Part shown: positions 22,908 through 34,803 of the stretch, in pieces
Layout: every line of letters starts with the position of its first letter
Position numbering within the stretch: position 1 is the stretch's first letter
DNA from: Candidatus Omnitrophota bacterium
GTDB lineage: Bacteria > Omnitrophota > Gorgyraeia > Zapsychrales > Zapsychraceae
NCBI GenBank assembly: GCA_029261065.1
Contig: JAJDCB010000032.1
Location: 1-42,506 of the forward strand
Length of the DNA stretch: 42,506 nucleotides
Direction: 5' to 3'
Notes under the pieces: generated by a model
The model's database searches: none
What the model was told of the DNA's origin: nothing
What the model saw: the letters and a program-made list of their open reading frames with translations, nothing else
Translations under genes and position numbers: made by a program

Positions 22908-23720
22908 ATGAAGGTCACACGAAAGTACGTCTTTCTCATTTTAATTACACTTATTACAACTTTGATATTTAGCCCGAAGCCAGCTGATGCTTTGATAGAT
23001 GTTGATGTGGCTTTAGTTTTAGCTGTTGACGTTTCAGGAAGTGTAAACACAACGGAGTTTAATTTGCAGAAAACGGGCTATGTTAATGCCTTTAAAAATG
23101 CCTCCATTTACAATGCTATTGAAAATAATAATCTATCTGTTGCCGTTACATTCTTGTATTGGTCGAATAATCAGCAACAAATTGCGAGTGGTTGGTCTTT
23201 GGTTACGGATCAAGCTTCATCTATTGCTTTTGCTGATCTTATTGATGCAACCAGTCGTCCATCCTTAGGAGGAGGAACAGCTTTGGGTGATGCCATTGAG
23301 TTTTCAGGTAGTTTATTTAGCGGCTGTGCTATCAATAGTGAAGCTTGTAATGCTAGTCGTTTTGTTATTGACGTCTCTGGTGACGGCGTTAGCAGTGCTG
23401 GTACCCTAGAATCAACTGAAGGGCGAGATGCGGCTTTACTGGCTGGTAATGCCATTAAACCTGGTGTAACAACAATTAATGGTTTGTCTATTGGAAACCA
23501 AACTGTTGCAGATCATTACATCAATAATGTAATAGGTGGGGTTAATCCTTTTCATATCAATGTTAGTGATTTTGATGGTATTGAGACAGCTGTTTTACAA
23601 AAGATAGGTAGAGAAATTGGAGTACCACAGGGCGATCCTGTTGTACCAGAACCAGCCACGATGTTAATGTTTGGTGGCAGTATGTTAGCTTTATTTATTA
23701 AAAGAAAGTTTTTGGGTTAA
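22908..23720 (+). CDS. VWA (DUF1194-like) PEP-CTERM surface protein
   Basis: 270 residues. Signal peptide to about residue 28, then a von Willebrand A domain with a full metal site: DVSGS (41-45), Thr124 in GGGTALGDA, Asp155/Asp159 in DVSGDG. The C-terminus has VPEPA (246-250), a hydrophobic helix and a basic end (KRKFLG), the PEP-CTERM signal recognised by exosortase. The whole fits the DUF1194 group often sorted this way. An exosortase must be encoded elsewhere. GGAGGGG before the ATG is a strong ribosome binding site. The upstream leader hairpin suggests regulated expression. Confidence 0.9.
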   Translation: MKVTRKYVFLILITLITTLIFSPKPADALIDVDVALVLAVDVSGSVNTTEFNLQKTGYVNAFKNASIYNAIENNNLSVAVTFLYWSNNQQQIASGWSLVTDQASSIAFADLIDATSRPSLGGGTALGDAIEFSGSLFSGCAINSEACNASRFVIDVSGDGVSSAGTLESTEGRDAALLAGNAIKPGVTTINGLSIGNQTVADHYINNVIGGVNPFHINVSDFDGIETAVLQKIGREIGVPQGDPVVPEPATMLMFGGSMLALFIKRKFLG

Positions 23721-23792: not shown

Positions 23793-24563
23793 TTAGATTC
23801 TAGAGGGACGGGAAACTTTCTTTTGGTATGTTTTTGGAGATTTACCGAATTGGCGTTTGAAGACTTTACAAAAATATCCAGGGTCTTCAAAACCACAAGC
23901 ATAGGATATCTCAGAAACGGAAAGATTGTTCTTTTTAAGCAATTTTGTGGCAGCATCCATTCGGATTTTATTGCGAAATTTGGCAAAGGTCGTATTTAAT
24001 TCTTTTTTAAAGATGCGGCTTAAGTGGTGGTAGCTTATGTTGTTTTGATCAGATATTTCTTTAAGGGAAAGGGTGTTTGAGTGAAAGTTGTTTTTTATAT
24101 ATTTAATCGCTTCATTAAGAACTCTTGTCTTATGAGTGACTATATTATCTTTAAATAAATTAATATTTAACGGGGTTAATTCATTTTTAATAATGTAATG
24201 CGTAAATTGATCTAGAGTTTTAGCGATTGACTGCCATTGCTCAAGTTGTAAGCTAAAATTTTTGTTTTCACCCGTAAACAATATTCCGATAACGTCGTCA
24301 TTGAGAACAATAGGAATGGCGATTTTTTTAAAACGATCTTCATCAATGTATTTGGCGGGGGCTTTTGATTCTTGAATTTCTTCGACGATAGCAGGTTTTA
24401 TATGATGACTTGGTGAGGTTTTAGATGAAGAGCAGTGAAGAGGGGTGCCATCAGCACGATACAGCTCCAAATCAAGACCGGAGAGTAGTTTGATGATATC
24501 TCGGTTATTCTTCAATAATGATAATTTTTCAATTTGGTTTAATAATGGATCGTAAGTAAACAT
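23793..24563 (-). CDS. AraC-family regulator with PocR/GAF-like sensor (copy 1)
   Basis: 256 residues. The N-terminal 130 form a small sensor domain ('LLSGLDLELYRADGTPLH', 'IAIPIVLNDDVIGILFTGENK') resembling PocR/GAF-type ligand domains. The C-terminal 100 are an AraC double helix-turn-helix ('LSLKEISDQNNISYHHLSR', 'SEISYACGFEDPGYFCKVFK'). A paralogue with the same layout is encoded at 31218-32099, and the two bracket the C39 peptidase/barrel cluster. Its promoter carries tandem boxes shared with the paralogue. It probably regulates that cluster; the ligand is unknown. Confidence 0.88.
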   Translation of the reverse strand: MFTYDPLLNQIEKLSLLKNNRDIIKLLSGLDLELYRADGTPLHCSSSKTSPSHHIKPAIVEEIQESKAPAKYIDEDRFKKIAIPIVLNDDVIGILFTGENKNFSLQLEQWQSIAKTLDQFTHYIIKNELTPLNINLFKDNIVTHKTRVLNEAIKYIKNNFHSNTLSLKEISDQNNISYHHLSRIFKKELNTTFAKFRNKIRMDAATKLLKKNNLSVSEISYACGFEDPGYFCKVFKRQFGKSPKTYQKKVSRPSRI

Positions 24564-24634
24564 AAAATAAATGATTTATAAACGGTTCCTATAAATTTTA
24601 TTTTACTGAGTATCTCGTCTGATGTGATAGTACT

Positions 24635-24691
24635 GTTTTATTACGAAAGATGAATTCTGTCAACATTACACAATAGGACAGAGTATGACAG
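24635..24691 (-). promoter_or_regulatory. Promoter and tandem operator of AraC copy 1
   Basis: On the minus strand, TTGACA (24663-24658), a 17-base spacer and TAAAAC (24640-24635) form a promoter. Seven bases upstream are two head-to-tail 10-bp boxes, CTGTCATACT and CTGTCCTATT (24691-24672). Near-identical boxes precede the other AraC gene, so a shared or autoregulatory site is likely. Confidence 0.6.
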
Positions 24692-24724
24692 TGAAAATCG
24701 GTTGAAAATTTAGGTAATGAGGGG

Positions 24725-26161
24725 TTAAAAAATGTGAGGAAAACGGAGATCTAAAACGACGTCGGGCGCATCTTCGGTAACACCAAAACTAATACCAAAG
24801 TTAACTGAAGATTTTTCATTGATCGCCCAGTTAAAACCGGTTTTGAGGGAAGCGACGTTAAGGAACGTTCCTCGAACGATAGCATCGTTTTGTTTTAATT
24901 TTTGTGAAATACTATGATTAAATGAAAAATTGATAGCAGTTTGATAACTTAAGGCAATGGCTGTTCCGAGGGAATAACCAAGGTTATCACCAGGATTAAT
25001 GGTCCCGTTAGGAGCATCGAATGTTTCTTCAAGGTTTGCTGTATAACTAAGGGATCCAAAGATAACAACAGGATCACTTGATTTAGCTGCAATAAGAGAG
25101 CCACGTACCGCCCAATGGCCCGTCCCAAGTCCTATGGAGTGAGAGAAAGGGTCTTTCCCGCTAGGTGTTTTAACGTTAAACGCTGCGATTAAATCTGGCA
25201 TAAGCCCATGTTCCCAACCAATTTGTCGACTAATTCCAAATTCGATATCCCCGATCCCTGTCGTTCCAGAGGTATTCCCTTCATTTTCACTTCTATCAGT
25301 TATACGGTTGTATTGCCCTTTAAATGGAAATTTAATTTCCGCTTGAAAATTATTAAAGGCGCCATATTTAAGGGCTAGTGTTTCAATGAAGATATCGCGT
25401 TTAACGGATTCTGTGGAGACATCTCCGACAACTAAAATAGGAAGGATACTAAATCCAGTAATGTTTAATCTGTTTGAAGAAAAATGAGCCCAGGAGAAGC
25501 TAGGTTCAATTTGAAGTGTTCCTTTAGGTAATAAAACGCTCCCCTTGTCTTGAAGGGTTCGTTCTATCGATTCGGGACGTTCTACGCCATCTCCGCCTTC
25601 AGGAAGCGTAGGGGGTTGAGTGCTCTCTGAAGTCGCATCACTAGCTTTTGCTATATAAAAACGGTTATCTTGAGGCGATTTGTAAAGTCCTGAGTCGAGT
25701 TGAAGATCTTGACGAATATAACTTCCGACGACTTGATCAAGTTCTTTATCTGATAATTTGGATTGTAACCCTAGTTCAATATTTCTGGCGACAACTTCTT
25801 GGACTAGGCGTTGCGTGGCTTGTTCTAAAGAGCCTTTATCAAATGGCGATAATTCAGATGAAGAATTTTTTGCTAATATATCTAATAACTCTGATATTTC
25901 ACCGCCCCTTTGGGCCATGTAAAATTCAATTTCAGCAGCTACTTTTTCCCGGACAATCTTCTCAACACGTTCTTCAAGATCTTTTTTCATCTCTGCTCGA
26001 AGTTCAAGGTAGAGATCACTTCGAATTTCAGCTTTTAATTCTTCTATTATGGCTAGTTCTTTATTAGTAAAAGAACTTTTTGCTATGGTTGTGACCATAA
26101 TAAATGTTGCGCAAGTTAACGTGACGATAAATATTTTAAGGGGTATCGATGTTGATTTCAT
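24725..26161 (-). CDS. Outer-membrane barrel with N-terminal coiled coil, FapF-like
   Basis: 478 residues. Signal segment (about 8-28), a highly charged coiled coil (about 33-84, e.g. ELRAEMKKDLEERVEKIV), a linker with PPTLPEGGDG, and from about 205 a run of amphipathic strands ending in a terminal Phe (LRFPHIF), the outer-membrane insertion signal. This layout, a helical plug and coiled coil before a barrel, is that of FapF, the trimeric pore that exports Pseudomonas amyloid. Its barrel also resembles the Phenol_MetA_deg type. It overlaps the C39 peptidase gene by 4 bases, as expected for a joint system. Assignment to Fap is by architecture and context, not by alignment. Confidence 0.75.
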   Translation of the reverse strand: MKSTSIPLKIFIVTLTCATFIMVTTIAKSSFTNKELAIIEELKAEIRSDLYLELRAEMKKDLEERVEKIVREKVAAEIEFYMAQRGGEISELLDILAKNSSSELSPFDKGSLEQATQRLVQEVVARNIELGLQSKLSDKELDQVVGSYIRQDLQLDSGLYKSPQDNRFYIAKASDATSESTQPPTLPEGGDGVERPESIERTLQDKGSVLLPKGTLQIEPSFSWAHFSSNRLNITGFSILPILVVGDVSTESVKRDIFIETLALKYGAFNNFQAEIKFPFKGQYNRITDRSENEGNTSGTTGIGDIEFGISRQIGWEHGLMPDLIAAFNVKTPSGKDPFSHSIGLGTGHWAVRGSLIAAKSSDPVVIFGSLSYTANLEETFDAPNGTINPGDNLGYSLGTAIALSYQTAINFSFNHSISQKLKQNDAIVRGTFLNVASLKTGFNWAINEKSSVNFGISFGVTEDAPDVVLDLRFPHIF

Positions 26162-26862
26162 TTGTATTCGTTTGGATAAATGGCTGAACGGATAAGGCCA
26201 TTGTTAACTAAATTACGTATATTTTTGTAGTCTGAAACGATAAGATCGTGCTCTTTGACTTTTAGTGCGTATTCTCGACTTTGATCTTCGTTTTTGGCTT
26301 CAACAACTAAACCAATACCTCTTGTCCATATTTTTTCAAATTGAAAAATTTTCATACTCATATTTCCAGCAGCAGGATCTGCAATAAAAACACGGCCGCC
26401 CACAATGCCTTTAACAATGACAAAATGACGGTAGTTGCGATATTTAATAGGGACTAAAACAGGTTTGTTGAGTTCCTTCAAAAATTCAGTATCCATTTTA
26501 TATCCCGTAACTTTGTATCCTTTTAATTTTGCAAATGTTTTAAGATCCAAAAGGGAAAAGCCATTACGCGCACGCACTTTTTCAATAGGCACTGTTTCTA
26601 ATAATGTTAAAATAATTTCTTCTTCTTCAATAGGATCGTCTAAATAATAATTCAAAAGCGTTGATAAGCCGGCTGCCCCACAGCTAAAGTCAAGAGATTG
26701 GATTACGATATTTTTTTTCTTAATTTCATTCATAGGCGTAACTTTTTTGTTTAAACGAATGCCGCCGCTGATAAAGCTTGTTGCCAAACAATCTTGAACA
26801 GAAATAATAGTAAACGTTGCAATCAATAATGTTATTAATAAATTTTTTTTAATCATAATCAT
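26158..26862 (-). CDS. Exported C39-family cysteine peptidase, FapD-like
   Basis: 234 residues. Signal peptide (1-27, DCLA-T), then a C39 fold: Cys61 in DFSCGAA, His146 in YRHFVIVKG and Asp162 in ADPAAGN give the papain-like triad. C39 peptidases cut behind double-glycine leaders; this one is free-standing and exported rather than fused to an ABC transporter, like FapD. Both proteins encoded just upstream carry leader-like motifs ending in AG or AGG. The start is the first of two ATGs, 6 bases after AGGA. It is translationally coupled to the barrel gene downstream. Confidence 0.87.
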   Translation of the reverse strand: MIMIKKNLLITLLIATFTIISVQDCLATSFISGGIRLNKKVTPMNEIKKKNIVIQSLDFSCGAAGLSTLLNYYLDDPIEEEEIILTLLETVPIEKVRARNGFSLLDLKTFAKLKGYKVTGYKMDTEFLKELNKPVLVPIKYRNYRHFVIVKGIVGGRVFIADPAAGNMSMKIFQFEKIWTRGIGLVVEAKNEDQSREYALKVKEHDLIVSDYKNIRNLVNNGLIRSAIYPNEYK

Positions 26863-26903
26863 GTTTTTCCTAAACAGTGGCGTTTTGGAAAGGGGTGAAG
26901 TCC

Positions 26904-27833
26904 TTATTGAAGCTGGAACGTGGTGAAGTTGCTTAAGTTGAGGGTATTATCATTGGATAAATTTTCAACAGATGAGTTCATAAGCACGGTTAAGTTAATT
27001 TGTACAGGAACAGTACTGCCTGCGGCATTGACGTTAACAAGAGCCGAAAGTTGTTGCTGTGCTGTTTCTGTGACACTAACAGAATTAAATGCTCCTGAGT
27101 TAGAGGTGTTGAAAGGTATAGCCGTTGTAGGTTGAGCATTGTTTTGAGATAAAGCGACTTCCAAAGTATCTCCACCTGAGGTGGCAATGACGTCAAAAAC
27201 TAGTTCTGGAACGACAGGAGCTGTAGGAATCGTAGGTGTTGTTGGCGCTGTTGGTAACGTTGGCAGCGTAGGAGCTGCTGGCGGTGTTGGAACATTTGGA
27301 AGTGTTGGAAGATTCGGTAAAGTTGGCAGCGTCGGTGATATGACAGCTGCTGGTGTTACAACAGGTGCTGTTGGAAGAGAAGGTGCGATAGGAAGAGATG
27401 GTGTTGCTGCAATTGATGGAATACCAGGTGTTGTTGGTGTTACGGGTATGACAGGGATTGTTGGTGCAACCGGAACTGTCGGTAGCGTTGGAGCAACAGG
27501 TGCCGTAGGTAGTGTTGGTGCTGTAGGTAGTGTTGGTAACGTTGGCAGCACAGGAGGTGTTGGTGTTGAAAGAATTGTTACATTCCCACTCGATGTTTGT
27601 ACCGTTTGGGAGGCGTTTGGTGATGTTGAAGGGGTGAGATTAGTATTGCCTGTATTCGTGGTTATGGTATTAGCATCACCAAGAAAGCCATCAAAGTTAA
27701 AATTAAGTCCTCCTGCAAAAACAGCATCAAGTTCTTGATCGGAGAGGATAACTGCTTCTCTTGCAAATACGGGTGTGATTTGACAAAAGGTGAAGAAGAC
27801 TAGCATGAAACAGGTGATAACTTTATGAGGCAT
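26904..27833 (-). CDS. Exported Pro/Thr-rich protein with double-glycine leader (C39 substrate candidate)
   Basis: 309 residues from ATG 27833, which has AAGGGA 6 bases upstream; a longer frame to 27881 lacks this. Signal peptide (1-24, VFA-R), then LSDQELDAVFAGG (30-42), a double-glycine leader motif. Next comes a Thr/Asn-rich stretch, about 125 residues of [TAV]P-[TVN]LP repeats (90-215), and a C-terminal domain rich in Asn, Ser, Thr and Gln with alternating hydrophobics (AQQQLSALVNVNAAGS). The proline run probably forms an extended stalk. It is encoded between the large repeat protein and the C39 peptidase and may be a minor fibre or nucleator. No homologue is recognised. Confidence 0.82.
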   Translation of the reverse strand: MPHKVITCFMLVFFTFCQITPVFAREAVILSDQELDAVFAGGLNFNFDGFLGDANTITTNTGNTNLTPSTSPNASQTVQTSSGNVTILSTPTPPVLPTLPTLPTAPTLPTAPVAPTLPTVPVAPTIPVIPVTPTTPGIPSIAATPSLPIAPSLPTAPVVTPAAVISPTLPTLPNLPTLPNVPTPPAAPTLPTLPTAPTTPTIPTAPVVPELVFDVIATSGGDTLEVALSQNNAQPTTAIPFNTSNSGAFNSVSVTETAQQQLSALVNVNAAGSTVPVQINLTVLMNSSVENLSNDNTLNLSNFTTFQLQ

Positions 27834-27876
27834 GTATTTCCCTTGAAACAAAATTGTTAACGAAAATAAGAGGTCG

Positions 27877-27906
27877 ATCAAGGGAAGGCCTAAGCCTTCC
27901 CTTGAT
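27877..27906 (-). other. Strong hairpin between the two substrate genes
   Basis: A perfect 12-bp stem (TCAAGGGAAGGC / GCCTTCCCTTGA), extended by one A-T pair, with a 4-base loop. On the minus strand it lies between the stop of the large repeat protein and the start of the Pro-rich protein and is followed by a pyrimidine-rich but not pure T stretch. It probably lowers read-through or protects the upstream message, so the first protein would be made in excess. Confidence 0.65.
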
Positions 27907-27920
27907 TGTCCTGTAGGTAT

Positions 27921-30629
27921 TTAGAAACCGTTAACAACTGTAGCCATGTTCGATTGCGACAATGTGCCCGAAATTGAGCTTGCATTGGCAACGTTTGCTT
28001 GAACGGCTATCGCAGATCCAACAACATTTAAGTTGTTGACTGCGCTAAGATTAGTTTGAGAACTTCCGCTAATAATAAGTCTGTTTTTGATCTTAACAGC
28101 TCTATTGCGAAGCTCTGTTTTCTCTTTAGTCTCAGTTTTAACGACGATGTCATCTTGAGTTGTTTCACGAACAACGCTTGTGTCTACTGTAGAACTGCTC
28201 TCTGATGAGCTAGTATCTTCAGATTTGTCACTTACGTCACTATTTGTACTTTTAGCGCTTTGTGCTTGATCGCTATCGTCCGTTGTTTTAGCAGACGACG
28301 CGTCAGAAGCAGCAGAGGCTGTATCTGTTTTTGTAGAATCACTGCTAGCATCATCAGCAGATGAGCTAGTAGCTGATTCATCAGCTTTGACATTTAATGT
28401 CGCATCTAATGATTCGTTATCAGAAGCAGAAGCGCTGTCTGATGCAGAAGAGTTGTCTGAGCTGGCAGAACTGCTAGCTGAGTCACTACTGCTTGAAGAA
28501 GAATCAGATGACGCAGATGATGCATCGTGACTGATTTTTAAAGCAGCGTCTAAAGATTCACCATCAGCTCCTGTAGAAGAATCAGCAGAAGCAGAACTTG
28601 CTGAGCTAGAAGCTGAGCTCGCTGAATCTGCATTATCAGTGGATGAATCAGAAGAAGATGCATTAGCTGCAGCATCGATGTTTAATGTTGCATCAAGGGA
28701 TTCGCCACTTGATGATGAAGCTGCATCAGACGCACTTGAATTGTCTGTACTAGCAGCTGAGCTAGCTGAATCGGAATTACCAGCATCAGAAGCATCAGAA
28801 GAAGATGACGCATCGTAAGAAGCTGCTAAACCAACATCTAAGTCAGCATCTTCACTTGAAGCTGCATCACTAGCGGAAGCTGAACTAGAAGTACTAGAAG
28901 CTGAGCTAGCTGCATCTGTTGTGTTATTAGAAGCTGCTGAACTAGAATCGTTAGCATCAGCACTAACCGCTAATGTTGCATCTAGTGATGCGCTATCAGA
29001 AGAAGAATCAGCATCATTTGATGTTCCATCTGTTGAAGATGCAGAGGAGGCTGCGGAATCTGTTGTTCCAGCGCTTGCATCACTGCTTGTTCCGGCTTCA
29101 TTGTAAGTTCCAGATACTGAAGCTTTTTCTGATGAACTTGCTGCTGAAGCAGATGCTGGATCAGCATCAGAAGAAGAAGAACTACTTGCAGTAGCTTCAT
29201 AAGCACCATCAATAGTTGCATCTTTTGATGTAGCTGTTTCGCCACTTGTGTTTGTTGTTGATGAATCAGCAGAAGATGCATTTTCTGCAGTCGTGTCTGT
29301 TGTTGCTGAACTTGATTCTGTAGAAGAAGCTTCAGCAGCGTTTAATGTACCATCTAATGCAAAGTTTTCTCCTGATTCAGAAGAGCTATCTGCACTTGAT
29401 GTTGATGAATCTGTAGCAGCTTGATCGGCAGCTGCCGCATCAGAACTTGTATCGCTAGAATTTGATGCTGAGCTTTCAGATGCTACTAAAGAAGCATCCA
29501 AGGCTGCATTTTCGTTTTCTTGAGCTGAGCTAGCTGAACTATCAGATGAAGAAGCATTAGCTGCTTGATCAGCTGTAGATGCGTCACTCGATGTTGAACT
29601 GCTTTCAGAAGAAGCATCAGCAGCTACATTAAGAGTACCGTCTAATCCAAAGCTTTCGCCTGAATCAGCAGAACTATCTGTTGTAGCTGATGATGAATCG
29701 TTTGCCGCACTATCAGCTCCAGAAGCATCAGAATCTGATGAATTAGAACTTGATGATGAATTAGCAGCTGCATTTAAAGAACCATCTAATGCAAAGTTTT
29801 CAGCATCAGAAGCTGAACTTGCATCAGCGTCAGCTGAAGAATCAGACATAGCATCACTAGCAGAAGAAGCATCTGCTGAAGCTGAATCTGAAGCTGAAGA
29901 AGAGCTAGTTGCTGCATTTAAAGTGCCATCTAATGAAAATGATGCTGAATCATCAGCAGCTGCAGAAGAAGAAGAACTAGCCTTATCTGTAGAACTGCCA
30001 TCTGAAGCGCTGCTGCTAGAAGTAGCTGCACTTTCATTTAAAGAAGAAGAAGAGCTGTTAGAAGCGCTTTCATCTAATGTATCGTTTGTAATTAATTCTT
30101 CTGCGATTCTAGTGCTTGAACCAGCAGTATCAGTTGTAATGTTTTTGTCTGTATCTGTTGATGTTTGTTTGATAGATTTATCAACAGTATGTGTTGATTT
30201 GTAAATTGTTTCATCTGCAGGTAATTCATTAGCTGTGTTGCTATTTTTAACATCAGCAATGTTTGATTGTGTTACATCAACGCTTCCTTGTGTAGAATTA
30301 GAAACGTTAGATTGAACAGCAACACCAGAATCAACAGCATTAGCGTTACTAATTGCGCTAACAGCTGATTGAGACTCACCTTCTATACTTAATTTGTTTG
30401 ATTTCTTGTATTCTTCAGGTGAGTTACCTTTTTTACCTTTACCACCCCATTCATCTTGTTCGCCACCTTTGGCAGAAGCAAGAACCCATTCCCCAGCTGC
30501 GATTTCTTCATCACCAGCTGCGATTTCGTCTAATTCAGCATCAGTTAACGCAACACCTGCTGCGTATGTGGACGATACTGGATATAGGGCGAATGAAAAT
30601 ATTAACAATAAACTTAAGAATTTTTTCAT
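27921..30629 (-). CDS. Large exported Ser/Ala/Asp-rich repeat protein, FapC-like layout
   Basis: 902 residues from ATG 30629 (AGGGA about 9 bases upstream); an in-frame ATG at 30665 adds 12 residues before the signal peptide. Order: signal peptide (1-24), leader-like LTDAELDEIAAG (28-39), a Gly/Lys-rich patch, an Asn/Gln/Ser module (about 78-127), a region of over 600 residues almost only Ser, Ala, Asp, Thr and Asn punctuated about every 45-50 residues by LDGTLNAA-like motifs (about 12), then a basic stretch and a second module to the C-terminus. The two modules align without gaps at about half identity. Repeat-linker-repeat with Asn/Gln patterns is the FapC amyloid layout. There is no Cys or anchor. 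It is likely the major exported fibre or matrix protein. Confidence 0.83.
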   Translation of the reverse strand: MKKFLSLLLIFSFALYPVSSTYAAGVALTDAELDEIAAGDEEIAAGEWVLASAKGGEQDEWGGKGKKGNSPEEYKKSNKLSIEGESQSAVSAISNANAVDSGVAVQSNVSNSTQGSVDVTQSNIADVKNSNTANELPADETIYKSTHTVDKSIKQTSTDTDKNITTDTAGSSTRIAEELITNDTLDESASNSSSSSLNESAATSSSSASDGSSTDKASSSSSAAADDSASFSLDGTLNAATSSSSASDSASADASSASDAMSDSSADADASSASDAENFALDGSLNAAANSSSSSNSSDSDASGADSAANDSSSATTDSSADSGESFGLDGTLNVAADASSESSSTSSDASTADQAANASSSDSSASSAQENENAALDASLVASESSASNSSDTSSDAAAADQAATDSSTSSADSSSESGENFALDGTLNAAEASSTESSSATTDTTAENASSADSSTTNTSGETATSKDATIDGAYEATASSSSSSDADPASASAASSSEKASVSGTYNEAGTSSDASAGTTDSAASSASSTDGTSNDADSSSDSASLDATLAVSADANDSSSAASNNTTDAASSASSTSSSASASDAASSEDADLDVGLAASYDASSSSDASDAGNSDSASSAASTDNSSASDAASSSSGESLDATLNIDAAANASSSDSSTDNADSASSASSSASSASADSSTGADGESLDAALKISHDASSASSDSSSSSSDSASSSASSDNSSASDSASASDNESLDATLNVKADESATSSSADDASSDSTKTDTASAASDASSAKTTDDSDQAQSAKSTNSDVSDKSEDTSSSESSSTVDTSVVRETTQDDIVVKTETKEKTELRNRAVKIKNRLIISGSSQTNLSAVNNLNVVGSAIAVQANVANASSISGTLSQSNMATVVNGF
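27924..28085 (-). repeat. C-terminal copy of the Asn/Gln module
   Basis: It encodes 54 residues (NRLIISGSSQ... to the stop) that align with the N-terminal module encoded at 30249-30398, with about 24 identities in 50 ungapped positions, including SQ, VQ-N-V and QSN. The pair brackets the Ser/Ala/Asp linker. Confidence 0.75.
28380..30000 (-). repeat. Low-complexity Ser/Ala/Asp repeat region
   Basis: Imperfect repeats of about 45-50 codons. Each has a short LD-x-[TS]L-[NA] core (for example ESLDATLN, FALDGSLNAA) inside Ser/Asp/Ala runs. Copies differ in length and sequence, showing expansion plus drift. Boundaries are approximate. Confidence 0.85.
30249..30398 (-). repeat. N-terminal copy of the Asn/Gln module
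   Basis: It encodes about 50 residues (NKLSIEGESQ... to IADV) homologous to the C-terminal module of the same protein, with the same spacing of Gln, Asn and Val. Confidence 0.75.
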
Positions 30630-30679
30630 TTTTAATTTTCCCTGATTGTGTGATTGATAATTCATTTACTCTTTACTTA

Positions 30680-30706
30680 GGAATTTCGAAGCTTTAACGA
30701 AATTCC
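30680..30706 (-). other. Leader hairpin GGAATTTCG...CGAAATTCC
   Basis: A perfect 9-bp stem around AAGCTTTAA in the presumed 5' leader of the large repeat gene, about 50 bases before its ATG. A related hairpin with C-to-T changes and one extra A recurs at 31169-31197. Confidence 0.65.
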
Positions 30707-30837
30707 AGGTACCCGTAGTTTGCTCTTAGGTTTATACCTTCGATTTGGGCGCTGAAGGATTACAAATCTTCAGCAATAACCCGTTTTTACAATTTAATAT
30801 TTGAATCTTGTTCGTTACGTTAAAAGTATGTTACTTT

Positions 30838-30870
30838 AGGTTTTTGCATGCCTCCTTTCAGGTTTTTGCA
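30838..30870 (-). promoter_or_regulatory. Two direct 11-bp boxes, candidate AraC-type operator
   Basis: TGCAAAAACCT occurs twice in the same orientation on the minus strand (30870-30860 and 30848-30838), starts 22 bp apart, about two helical turns. AraC-type dimers commonly bind such direct repeats, and two AraC genes flank this cluster. Confidence 0.45.
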
Positions 30871-30873
30871 ATA

Positions 30874-30925
30874 AAAAAACCCAGGCAATAGCAATGCTAT
30901 TAACATGGCTGTCTGGGTTTATCGT
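30874..30925 (-). terminator. Rho-independent terminator (minus strand)
   Basis: On the minus strand, stem AAACCCAGRCA / TGYCTGGGTTT with an inner ATAGCA/TGCTAT stem is followed by a run of seven T. It probably ends the transcript of AraC copy 2, about 300 bases after its stop, and insulates the repeat-protein promoter. Confidence 0.7.
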
Positions 30926-31168
30926 CGACCTATTTAAAGTTTTTGATAACATATGGACAAATTGTTTTTTGAACGTAAAGATTCGTAACAAAAATAGAAT
31001 AACACAAGGAGGAAGAACATCAATGGAATGATTTGCGTTTCAACAGTATTTATTTGTTAACTGCAATATTTGTTTGTGTTGCTCCAGTTGTGAACAGATA
31101 TTTTAGCTTTAATCGCAAGTCATTACAATGGACTATTTTGTCTTTGTGATGTAAATTTTTGTTTTTTT

Positions 31169-31197
31169 AGGAATTTTGAAGCTTTAATGAAAATTCA
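31169..31197 (-). other. Diverged second copy of the leader hairpin
   Basis: GGAATTTTGAAGCTTTAATG followed by AAAATTC resembles the hairpin at 30680-30706, with the C/G closing bases turned to T/A and one insertion. It lies 20 bases beyond the stop of AraC copy 2. Confidence 0.5.
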
Positions 31198-31217
31198 GAC
31201 ACTTTGATTGGAAAAAA

Positions 31218-32099
31218 TTAATTTGTAGCGAGAGTTGATAAGATGGAAGGCATGTTATCGATGCGTGTTGTTGAAGGTTTTTGTTGAGAGGGTGTAGGGT
31301 TAAGTTTATTTCTATAAGCGGCTGGTGGTGTTCCTTTTAGTTTCTTAAAAACTTTACAAAAGTAACCGGAATCGTCAAATCCACAAAGGAAAGCAACTTG
31401 ACTTATGGTCATGCTTTTATCTTGAAGTAATTTTGTAGCAACATCAATACGTACTTTAGTGACATATTTAGAGAAGGTTGTTTGCATCTGTTTTTTAAAT
31501 AAATGGCTGAGGTAGTAATAGCTTAAGCCGTTTTTATCAGCAACCACTTTAAGAGAAAGGTCAGGGTGATGATAATTTTGAAGGATATATTTTTGGGCTT
31601 TGTCGACGGCCTTACTTTGATGAGTTTGCTGATTGCCTTTAAAATTATTAAAGGACTTTAAATCCTGATTAATGATGCGATCCAGATTATAGTCTAAAAA
31701 CTTTGCAATAGATTGTAATTGAATTTTATTTAATGGAAAGTTTTCATTTTCATAGACATAGAGAAAGCCTGTAATCCGTTCATTTAATTTGACAGGAACC
31801 AAAATACCGTGCAATCCTGCTTTTGAATTAAAAATTTGAGATTGGGCTGTTTCAATTGTTCTTTTAATAGGAAGGTTGTGAATATGAGAATCATTTGTAT
31901 GTGTGTCGTTGAATAGATCTGGAAAATCGATACGTGTTGAGCTTAAAGGTGTGGGCTGAGTGGTTGTATGGCGAGCAAGGTTTTGTCCGTTAATGTCTAA
32001 AAAATGGAAAGATAATCTGCAAATGTCTTTTAAAAAAGTTTGCAAATTGGTTAACGTTTCATTTGTAGAAAGATATTCTAAAAGAAAGTTATATGTCAT
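31218..32099 (-). CDS. AraC-family regulator with PocR/GAF-like sensor (copy 2)
   Basis: 293 residues: sensor domain (about 1-150; 'LSFHFLDINGQNLARHTT', 'LHGILVPVKLNERITGFLYVYENE'), then the AraC double helix-turn-helix (about 175-270; 'LSLKVVADKNGLSYYYLSHLFKK', 'SQVAFLCGFDDSGYFCKVFKKLKG') and a Pro/Ser-rich tail. It is paralogous to the regulator at 23793-24563 over its full length. It lies directly upstream of the exported repeat-protein gene, in the same direction, and is the likeliest direct activator of it. Confidence 0.88.
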   Translation of the reverse strand: MTYNFLLEYLSTNETLTNLQTFLKDICRLSFHFLDINGQNLARHTTTQPTPLSSTRIDFPDLFNDTHTNDSHIHNLPIKRTIETAQSQIFNSKAGLHGILVPVKLNERITGFLYVYENENFPLNKIQLQSIAKFLDYNLDRIINQDLKSFNNFKGNQQTHQSKAVDKAQKYILQNYHHPDLSLKVVADKNGLSYYYLSHLFKKQMQTTFSKYVTKVRIDVATKLLQDKSMTISQVAFLCGFDDSGYFCKVFKKLKGTPPAAYRNKLNPTPSQQKPSTTRIDNMPSILSTLATN

Positions 32100-32162
32100 G
32101 AGTGAAGGCGTTTTGTTAAATGCTACAACATAAAGTTCAATAAAGTCTCAATTAACGCGCAT

Positions 32163-32209
32163 ATAATGATAGAAAAGTGTCCTTTTGTCAATAGGACATA
32201 GTAGGACAG
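32163..32209 (-). promoter_or_regulatory. Promoter and tandem operator of AraC copy 2
   Basis: On the minus strand, TTGACA (32191-32186), a 17-base spacer and CATTAT (32168-32163). Two head-to-tail boxes, CTGTCCTACT and ATGTCCTATT (32209-32190), abut and partly overlap the -35. The same pair of boxes, one base different in each, precedes AraC copy 1. Confidence 0.6.
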
Positions 32210-32220
32210 GGTGGTCTTTT

Positions 32221-33129
32221 TTATTTTTCAGGTTTGACTTTAAACGTGATGCGACTTTCTCGAATAGAGTTTGATCTTTTTGGAGGGGCTTGTTGAATGG
32301 AGATGGGATCTTTGTATAAATTTAATTTAAAAATATCATGACCTCTTTTTTCTAAATCTTTTAAACGATCTTTATATTTGAAATTAAAAAAATCATCGAT
32401 GATAAAAAGAAAATTTAAAATGTAAAAAATGGCGTTTTTAAGATTAACGGTGATGCCTATCTCTGAGGGGAGGGGCGAGAAGGTGATGTTCTTGTCATCT
32501 TGAACCAAGTACTCATTGTCGCCGAGAATGCTGGGGTGAGAGAATCGTGAGCAAAGGCGAAAAGTCGTCTCATACTCATTTAATAACTTTCGATCAACCT
32601 CACGCGCCATATCTCTAACCGTCTTACCTGACCATGTCATTAAGGCGCGGTCGGAGGTGATGTTAAATTTCTTTTTAAAATCATTAACTTGTTTTAAAAC
32701 ATTATCACGTTTCTTAAAAAATTCTAAGCGCTCCTCATTTGAAGCTTTACGTATGTTTCTTTCTTGCTCAGGAAGATGTCTTTTAAAAATAACCCACTTA
32801 TAAGCCACAAACCGAGCCGCTTTTTCATCTGCGAATTTTCTGTCATGCAGAATAAATCTAACTGTCACGAGATTTTCCATCAAGCTACGAAGAAGAGTGG
32901 CCACATCTTGTCCAAAGCCCTCTTGACAGAGCAATCGAATGGAAGAATAGGTTTTTATGGATCGCGTGATGACGAATAGGAAGATTCTTTGATAAGCTGG
33001 TAGGTTAAACAGCTTAATATCACGTTTATTAAACTCTCCTAATATCGCGTGAATGGTATCATCTACATCATCGGCTAGGTGAAATAATTCTTTGTATTTT
33101 TGGCTAATAGGGTTGTTTTTGTTGGGCAT
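32221..33129 (-). CDS. DUF5677-like all-helical protein
   Basis: 302 residues, predicted helical and without a signal peptide. The segment 'SIRLLCQEGFGQDVATLLRSLMENLVTVRFIL' and the later 'FRLCSRFSHPS' match the DUF5677 pattern (helix with LxRSLxE, then SHPS). These proteins, of unknown function, are often found in accessory or defence-associated regions. The RFSHPS motif recalls, but does not prove, HEPN-type Arg/His residues. The C-terminus is basic. It is a single gene on the minus strand, and its upstream side carries a GC-rich repeat. Confidence 0.7.
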   Translation of the reverse strand: MPNKNNPISQKYKELFHLADDVDDTIHAILGEFNKRDIKLFNLPAYQRIFLFVITRSIKTYSSIRLLCQEGFGQDVATLLRSLMENLVTVRFILHDRKFADEKAARFVAYKWVIFKRHLPEQERNIRKASNEERLEFFKKRDNVLKQVNDFKKKFNITSDRALMTWSGKTVRDMAREVDRKLLNEYETTFRLCSRFSHPSILGDNEYLVQDDKNITFSPLPSEIGITVNLKNAIFYILNFLFIIDDFFNFKYKDRLKDLEKRGHDIFKLNLYKDPISIQQAPPKRSNSIRESRITFKVKPEK

Positions 33130-33330: not shown

Positions 33331-34803
33331 ATGGATAATTTAAAAATTTTGAATGCAATCTTAAAAAATGTATTTTCCTTTACCTGCCTATTTGCTTTTT
33401 TATGCTGCTGCAGGCCCGCCCACGCCGTCACAGAATTTATTTCCACCATCAACAAAACAGGTCAAGATTATGATACGTTAACATTGTGGGAAGCCGCGAT
33501 GGATAATGCCACAGATTTAACAGACGGAACAGTAAAGACGGGTGATTGGGATACTCAGGTTGGATCAGATATAGCAGATGCCACTGCGGTGACCTGGGAT
33601 GTTGGGGTAAGCACAGGGACTTTACTTCATATGACGGGAACACAATACCTAATAAAGGTGTCAGGCGGAACGCTGGCTGATGATGACGTAATCGATGATG
33701 GGGGGGGCAATACATTTAATATCAACGGAGCGCCAGACTCAGCGATCATCACAGCACATTTGTATAATGACGATGGGGATCTGGTTGATAATCTAGTAAT
33801 AGATGGATTAGTAACGGACGCGACAAACTATTGGAAGGTAACGGTGCCATCGGGAGAACGACATGATGGGACGGCGGGGTCGGGGGCGGTGATTGATCCT
33901 ACTGCGACTGCGAGGGGAATTTATATCTTAGATCCCAATACGGTAATAGAATGGGTTGAGATTGATGGTGCCGTTATTCCTTCTGGTGCTGGTGTCATTC
34001 AGGTTGGAGCTGCAAATGCAACCATAGATTCTGTAATAATACATGATTGGACGGATGCCGCCACATTTAATACTATTGGTATTACAGACAATGGGTCAGG
34101 GTCTACTTTTACTGTGATGAATTCAATTATTTACAATTCGCGTTCCCGTGGGATAAGTGCCAATTCAGATGCAAATATATATAATACAATTGTTCATGAT
34201 ACTAATTCTCAAGGAATTCATATTGGTGCTGGTACAGCCGTTGTCAAAAATTGTATCGTCACCGAAGCGACCCTCACTGATTTTTCTGGGACGTTTGATG
34301 CTTCTTCGGATAATAATATTACTGACGGCGTCTTTGCCGCTGGCCCGGATTTGGATTCAGGGATCACTCATTCATCGGGGAATTCAGGGGTAACAGTCAC
34401 TGATACCAGTCAGAATTTCGAAACAACGGTTCTGCCGACACTTAATGCTGGTGAGGTTGCTTGGTTTAATAATGATACCCTTGATAAATCTTCACGTATT
34501 ACTGCTGTCATTGATGATAATACATTAACACTTGCCGAAGAAAGTGTCACAGGAAATTCAGATTTCTTCTCTATTAATAAATCAGCGTATTACCGCACAG
34601 CCACAGAACTGTATGTGGATTTCTCCGATGGCACCGAAGACTTTCATTTAATAGCCAACGCGCCAGCACTTGATGCCGGGGCAGATCTTTCGGGAACTTT
34701 TACAGACGATATTGATGAACAAACGCGGCCAATACGTACCCTCTGGGATATCGGCGCTGATGAATCCCTTTTCGGCCTATCACGGAGAGTGATTATTTTT
34801 TAA
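33331..34803 (+). CDS. Secreted right-handed beta-helix protein
   Basis: 490 residues. Signal peptide to about residue 32 (RPAHA-V) after a Cys triplet. It has 'YDTLTLWEAAMDNATDL' near the start, a segment often seen ahead of beta-helix domains in surface proteins, then repeated short strands typical of parallel beta-helices from about 190 to 350 ('NATIDSVIIHDWTD', 'FTVMNSIIYNSRSRGISANS', 'AVVKNCIVTEATL'). Near the end comes 'LDAGADLSGTFTDDIDEQTRP', also common in such proteins. No catalytic residues are recognised, so adhesin or polysaccharide-binding roles are equally possible. It is flanked by the 28-bp repeats and ends in a terminator. Confidence 0.82.
   Translation: MDNLKILNAILKNVFSFTCLFAFLCCCRPAHAVTEFISTINKTGQDYDTLTLWEAAMDNATDLTDGTVKTGDWDTQVGSDIADATAVTWDVGVSTGTLLHMTGTQYLIKVSGGTLADDDVIDDGGGNTFNINGAPDSAIITAHLYNDDGDLVDNLVIDGLVTDATNYWKVTVPSGERHDGTAGSGAVIDPTATARGIYILDPNTVIEWVEIDGAVIPSGAGVIQVGAANATIDSVIIHDWTDAATFNTIGITDNGSGSTFTVMNSIIYNSRSRGISANSDANIYNTIVHDTNSQGIHIGAGTAVVKNCIVTEATLTDFSGTFDASSDNNITDGVFAAGPDLDSGITHSSGNSGVTVTDTSQNFETTVLPTLNAGEVAWFNNDTLDKSSRITAVIDDNTLTLAEESVTGNSDFFSINKSAYYRTATELYVDFSDGTEDFHLIANAPALDAGADLSGTFTDDIDEQTRPIRTLWDIGADESLFGLSRRVIIF

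Follow-up and report, generated by a model that had tools for sequence, protein, structure and literature searches.

What does a free-standing C39 peptidase do when its gene lies beside those of an outer-membrane barrel and two Sec-exported proteins in a bacterium of an uncultured phylum? We addressed this question for the window, a stretch of 42,506 nucleotides (GCA_029261065.1, contig JAJDCB010000032.1) that is part of a 2.71-Mb genome whose relatives in the genome collection are Candidatus Omnitrophota. Transcription of the cluster on the minus strand runs from a DUF5677 protein through an AraC-family regulator, a large and a small exported protein, the C39 peptidase and the barrel protein to a second AraC-family regulator. 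The peptidase and barrel genes (fapD and fapF below) overlap by 4 bp, and the other structural genes are separated by 41 and 87 bp. A first-pass annotation had likened this block to Fap, the functional-amyloid secretion system of Pseudomonas, with new types of substrate. We conclude that it is probably a Fap-type cassette that exports and assembles surface fibres, with the subunit leader cut by FapD. The computational evidence for this conclusion consists of the homology and fold of FapF and FapD, their linkage, a shared leader and a shared subunit module.

The barrel protein (24725-26161, minus strand) has the parts of a FapF-type outer-membrane secretion pore, namely a coiled coil, a linker, a plug helix and a C-terminal barrel ending in Phe. 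In NCBIfam, it matched the models for FapF (E=7e-37) and Acinetobacter FilC (E=6e-14); its FapF score of 127 bits lies under the equivalog cut-off of 700 bits, and by that NCBIfam rule the protein is, on its sequence, a FapF relative and not an orthologue. The best PDB relatives were four FapF crystal sequences (E ~1e-28; 1.3e-28 for 5o67), aligned over pore residues 197-478 from the plug region through the final Phe, and Phe478 is invariant among relatives. An AlphaFold2 (AF2) model with a mean predicted local distance difference test score (pLDDT) of 80 placed helices at residues 33-84 and 109-132, a short helix at 138-147, disorder at 148-193 (pLDDT<50), a plug helix at 197-205 (25547-25573, minus strand), where the aligned FapF crystal construct begins, and a confident barrel from residue 216 onward. 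The modeled succession of N-terminal coiled coil, ~40-residue disordered linker and plug helix is the layout of the FapF family, for which Pseudomonas FapF (PMC6173795) served as the comparison. The top 18 Foldseek matches of the model were all FapF chains (5o67, template modeling score 0.84), with a COG4313 channel next. The barrel protein ending in Phe thus stands as first described, with an invariant Phe478, a long helical N-terminal region and a FapF-type barrel. Against the alternative of an unrelated transporter family lacking a coiled-coil plug stand the FapF matches from NCBIfam, PDB and Foldseek and a plug helix preceded by a coiled coil.

The gene overlapping the fapF start (26158-26862, minus strand) encodes an exported C39 cysteine peptidase of the FapD/FilB type, with FilB as its best NCBIfam family (E=1e-37) and FapD following at E=4e-32, both scores being under the equivalog cut-offs (475 bits for FilB, 330 bits for FapD). 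The Cys61/His146/Asp162 triad read by the first-pass annotation is intact, and together with the oxyanion residue Gln55 it is invariant in 11 relatives.

A search of the genome contigs with a FapD alignment yielded 80 FapD loci in Omnitrophota, Acidobacteriota, Pseudomonadota, Thermodesulfobacteriota, Myxococcota, Nitrospirota and Armatimonadota, and a FapF barrel lay nearby in 68 of them, mostly as the next gene; a single-sequence FapF search of the same contigs found no relative. FapD (E<=1e-20) was present in 12 of 384 Omnitrophota genomes, all of them among the 15 FapF-positive genomes. The three others held generic barrels (L029, L030) or a broken fragment (G138); the weak FapF matches of L029 and L030, which have low scores and no C39 gene, were rejected as generic MetA-type barrels. 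The order Large-Small-FapD-FapF is retained in Omnitrophota relatives wherever contigs permit, often preceded by AraC and DUF5677 genes, and the same four-gene cassette occurs in Acidobacteriota, Gammaproteobacteria and Deltaproteobacteria-type genomes, so that the four genes do stay together, as the Fap comparison had anticipated; Edaphobacter and Granulicella are among the cultured carriers of the cassette. FapD and FapF trees built from the same loci agreed in their major clades; most Omnitrophota sequences cluster together in both, in no single clean clade. A leader protein apparently without FapD in G127 was set aside, the cluster there running past the contig end. In six Smithella/Syntrophaceae-type loci (L051, L052, L054, L081, L088 and L090), FapD is accompanied by several exported proteins of small size whose leaders are of the ISDSELSAVIAQEGV type, and no FapF match was found near FapD. 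That homologues of fapD and fapF lie together in five further phyla was reported previously in PMC6173800; the section on these pairs describes neither their substrates nor a leader or linker motif.

The large secreted subunit is a 914-residue open reading frame (ORF; 27921-30665, minus strand; likely start Met13 at 30629), and the small subunit has 309 residues (26904-27833, minus strand). Directly behind the signal peptide the two proteins carry ILSDQELDAVFAGG and ALTDAELDEIAAGD, and in both the Sec signal is followed by a 12-residue leader of the form L-S/T-D-x-x-L/M-D-x-V/I-x-A-G. In the large subunit this is LTDAELDEIAAG (residues 40-51; 30513-30548, minus strand), with a predicted FapD cut after G51 and a second IAAG immediately after; in the small subunit it is LSDQELDAVFAGG (residues 30-42; 27708-27746, minus strand). 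With the next residue, the two substrates read LSDQELDAVFAG-G and LTDAELDEIAAG-D. Classical double-glycine leaders, which are read by C39 peptidases, have the consensus LSxxELxxIxGG, and the subunit leader matches it.

The leader is also recurrent. Among 68 module proteins its preferences were L-12, D-10, L/M-7, D-6, V/I-4, A-2, G/A-1 and G+1, some of these positions being restricted by the search pattern. A regular expression for the leader hit 57 of 86 module proteins; the corresponding rates were 2.5% for other ORFs and 2.3% for shuffles. Most of the missed proteins have a truncated N-terminus or a near variant of the motif, such as LRDNQMDKVTAG. Leader-profile matches of at least 10 bits were found in 94 of 1057 ORFs on the fapD strand versus 5 of 1257 on the other strand of these loci. 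In the whole genome, a profile from which all window and FapF sequences had been left out gave as its three best matches the small subunit (E=1e-6), the large subunit (E=0.005) and a site in the FapF linker (E=0.28). The two Sec-exported proteins with double-glycine-like leaders were rightly recognized, and both enrichments are beyond chance. Comparison of the leader with classical FapE gave no statistical match. FapE and FapE-like proteins of four loci (L114:3663-4310, minus strand; L106; L084; L107) contain ELAHLRGRY, ELAMMRGRF, ELNQVRGGY and EMSELRGGY; this ELxxLRGG/R resembles a double-glycine leader and is offered purely as a lead to a candidate FapD site in classical Fap.

Both subunits share a module of ~43 residues. 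Behind its Sec signal and leader, the large subunit has a module near the N-terminus (SQSAVSAISNANAVDSGVAVQSNV..., residues 94-135; 30261-30386, minus strand), a Ser/Ala/Asp-rich middle of ~720 residues and a module at the extreme C-terminus (SQTNLSAVNNLNVVGSAIAVQANV..., residues 865-906; 27948-28073, minus strand), a layout that is identical in orthologues from L019, L020, L035 and L163. The small subunit follows its signal and leader with a Pro/Thr-rich middle and one C-terminal module (AQQQLSALVNVNAAGSTVPVQINL...; 26946-27068, minus strand), and single-module orthologues of it sit directly upstream of fapD in most loci. All three modules were located with a hidden Markov model (HMM), and the profile seeded with them and iterated retrieved 96 proteins in 47 loci, a few of these loci being repeat entries of the same genome. 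Across phyla, the large protein keeps terminal modules around a variable low-complexity middle and the small protein keeps one C-terminal module. In one locus (L162:4733-5671, plus strand) a single ORF combines a signal, a double-glycine leader, one substrate module and a FapD peptidase domain, and is either a natural substrate-peptidase fusion or a deletion.

Whether these modules are diverged FapB/FapC repeats was judged with a Fap-repeat profile taken from the genuine Aeromonas fap operon (L114). It matched Aeromonas FapB and FapC and the loci L084, L093, L106, L107 and L111, and nothing in the window; conversely, the module HMM matched no FapB or FapC, and hhalign of the module against FapB/FapC repeats returned probabilities of 2-13%. 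Diverged FapB/FapC repeats are therefore unsupported by either HMM or profile comparison, and the substrates appear from their sequences to be a subunit family of their own that uses the same export machinery, with a very remote FapB/C kinship possible. The module profile, which misses FapB/FapC, agrees with the first-pass annotation in making the substrates of a new type. For neither subunit was there a Pfam or NCBIfam match to a FilA-type substrate. A match of the small subunit to the IgA-binding-protein model NF038253 was rejected as a Pro-rich low-complexity artefact (23 bits versus a 1700-bit cut-off).

A third copy of the leader, absent from the earlier annotation, is in the FapF linker: LSDKELDQVVGS (residues 136-147; 25721-25756, minus strand) forms a short predicted helix before the disordered residues 148-193. 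Between coiled coil and plug, the motif is clear in 11 and degenerate in 1 of 14 Omnitrophota pores, and outside the phylum it occurs in one deltaproteobacterial pore (L050). The linker match draws its weight from this position and conservation. A double-glycine in FapF had already been noted in 2016 (PMC5135000). In the pores of L022, L023 and L024 a fibronectin/Ig-like stretch (ITWxTDxxxxSQxEYG...) replaces the coiled coil, and the linker motif is retained.

Secretion of FapC in Pseudomonas requires the active-site Cys of FapD, which acts in the periplasm (PMC5557850). The Fap proteins are reported to lack canonical C39 sequences, mass spectrometry did not recover the FapF linker peptides or the N-terminus of FapE, which are the parts that appear processed, and Rouse et al. 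raised a possible FapD cut of FapF near the plug (PMC5557850). No FapD target is identified in PMC5557850 or PMC6173800.

From the features above we infer cleavage, an order of events, gating, and fibre and amyloid formation as follows. The two subunits would cross the inner membrane by Sec and retain behind the signal peptide a propeptide of ~20 residues that ends in a putative classical double-glycine leader (LSDxELDxVxAG). The periplasmic FapD-like peptidase would recognize this leader and cut after A-G to give subunits competent for export and assembly, which would exit by way of the FapF-like pore and join up outside by means of the Asn/Gln-containing modules that they share, with the Ser/Ala/Asp-rich and Pro/Thr-rich stretches serving as presumed variable spacers. 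Because the FapF linker has the same leader motif, the pore is probably one more place at which FapD docks or cuts, which may couple subunit maturation to pore gating. Trimming of the subunits by FapD is most likely, and trimming of the pore linker is probable as well. The product is most likely amyloid, judging by analogy and by the Asn/Gln-bearing modules.

Several observations weigh against parts of this mechanism. The module is not detectably FapB/FapC, and amyloid behavior is thus argued by analogy; an AF2 model of four repeats from L041 was unusable (pLDDT 34); and fibre formation and cleavage in this cluster are predictions from sequence. The exact R-h-x-x-h-E trimer motif of the coiled coil is not in this pore, being found in 43 of 78 pores overall and absent from the listed Omnitrophota pores. 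The linker site is weak when taken alone (E=0.28), and the motif is missing from two Omnitrophota pores and from nearly all pores of other phyla, which implies that pore cutting at such a site is not general.

The linker copy in the window also has G-S instead of A-G at positions -2/-1 before the predicted cut, which leaves it possible, though somewhat doubtful, that the FapF motif serves as a pseudo-substrate where FapD docks and is kept at the pore, with no cut being made. C39 domains are able to bind substrates uncut, as Rouse et al. discussed for a type 1 secretion system subgroup (PMC5557850). However, most relatives have A-G or G-A at the predicted linker cut (VVAG, FIAG, YFAG, IVGAG), the pore model is disordered immediately behind the motif, and the peptides missing from Pseudomonas FapF are those of the linker (PMC5557850), all of which favor a cut linker over mere docking.

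Retaining FapD-mediated maturation and FapF-mediated export, one may still doubt the product. The large subunit is mostly low-complexity Ser/Ala/Asp, and most loci have one module per end and no tandem array, mostly at the very C-terminus and resembling an export or capping signal; on these grounds the same route might carry matrix or adhesin polymers whose modules are export or anchoring signals. We consider this non-amyloid product unlikely, since known FapF substrates are amyloid subunits (PMC5557850), a few relatives (L024, L041, L086) have 6-18 modules and some multi-module relatives contain QNNNNSVQLN-type runs, like fibre-forming repeat proteins, and the conserved module positions are Asn/Gln together with small and beta-prone residues. 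Fibre subunits remain our preferred product for the cassette.

A C39 peptidase with double-glycine leaders is the usual sign of antimicrobial peptide secretion, and the leader fits the classical consensus and the peptidase has the fold of bacteriocin ABC transporters, but a bacteriocin or peptide-pheromone exporter is highly improbable here, as no ABC transporter is among the cluster genes, the substrates are Sec-signalled and 309-914 residues long, and the partner is a FapF pore.

Set beside known systems, the cluster shares with Fap of Pseudomonas and Aeromonas a periplasmic C39 peptidase of the FapD type, beside it a FapF-type pore made of a coiled coil and a plugged barrel, and Sec-exported, repeat-bearing subunits encoded upstream. 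It differs in having no FapA or FapE gene that could be seen, in its AraC and DUF5677 neighbors, in a subunit module that is not detectably FapB/FapC, and in a full leader on the subunits and the pore linker, whereas canonical C39 sequences are reported absent from Fap proteins. No extra ORF or NCBIfam match of the FapA kind lies within the cluster, and fapA is frequently absent from Fap loci (PMC3792158). A phmmer search with Aeromonas FapE matched only L106 besides itself, and the 4-bp overlap leaves no space for FapE between fapD and fapF. The cluster probably works like Fap, has the FapD/FapF family pair and is not a fapABCDEF operon, FapB/FapC and FapE counterparts not having been found. 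The likeness to Pseudomonas FapD and FapF is upheld by homology and linkage, and the AraC regulators differ as first noted. The Acinetobacter Fil system (FilA-FilF, 'putative pilus system') is alike in that FilB is the best peptidase family, FilC matches the pore and FilA has a post-signal MDDAALSAATGQDG motif; it differs in its FilA-type substrate, its FilD/E/F genes and the lack of a module of the present kind. C39-containing ABC exporters (bacteriocins, ComA) share the C39 fold and triad and the leader consensus, whereas the peptidase here is free-standing, Sec-exported and coupled to an outer-membrane pore.

The minus-strand block contains all the genes first assigned to it, but its limits were drawn too narrowly: the conserved unit reaches as far as the DUF5677 gene (32221-33129, minus strand), a neighbor kept in seven Omnitrophota clusters (the window, L018/L033, L019, L020, L035, L037, L160) whose product has no PDB relative. 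The regulators flanking the cluster (31218-32099, upstream of the subunits, and 23793-24563, downstream of fapF, both minus strand) are indeed paralogues (44% identity across 176 residues); bracketing by two copies does not extend to relatives, in whose clusters a single AraC gene is the usual state and a second was not seen. No Rfam element was found in the cluster region. The cluster is adjoined by a plus-strand gene (22908-23720) whose product has a VWA domain and a PEP-CTERM sorting tail, and another such protein lies beside the cluster of genome G195 (L163:5531-6289). On the other side, an exported 490-residue protein (33331-34803, plus strand) has a choice-of-anchor-Q C-terminus and is otherwise without match.

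New here are the family of subunits and an explicit leader, of which the pore has a copy, and a literature search for Omnitrophota and amyloid returned no title concerning this system. We put forward, with slightly less than even confidence, a broad class of outer-membrane fibre export with members in about seven phyla. In this class a free C39 peptidase of the periplasm would read a classical double-glycine leader on subunits that are exported by Sec and belong to a new repeat family, and the Omnitrophota pore linker carries the same leader, so that one peptidase would mature the cargo and unlock the pore. FapD is essential for Fap export, and the cluster offers conserved candidate cut sites on cargo and pore, which makes the question of the FapD target directly testable. 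These results suggest that export of the Fap type reaches beyond the fapABCDEF operon, which is confined to Proteobacteria, and that Omnitrophota, Acidobacteriota and others have a second family of subunits; for an uncultured phylum, the cluster is a candidate system for making surface fibres.

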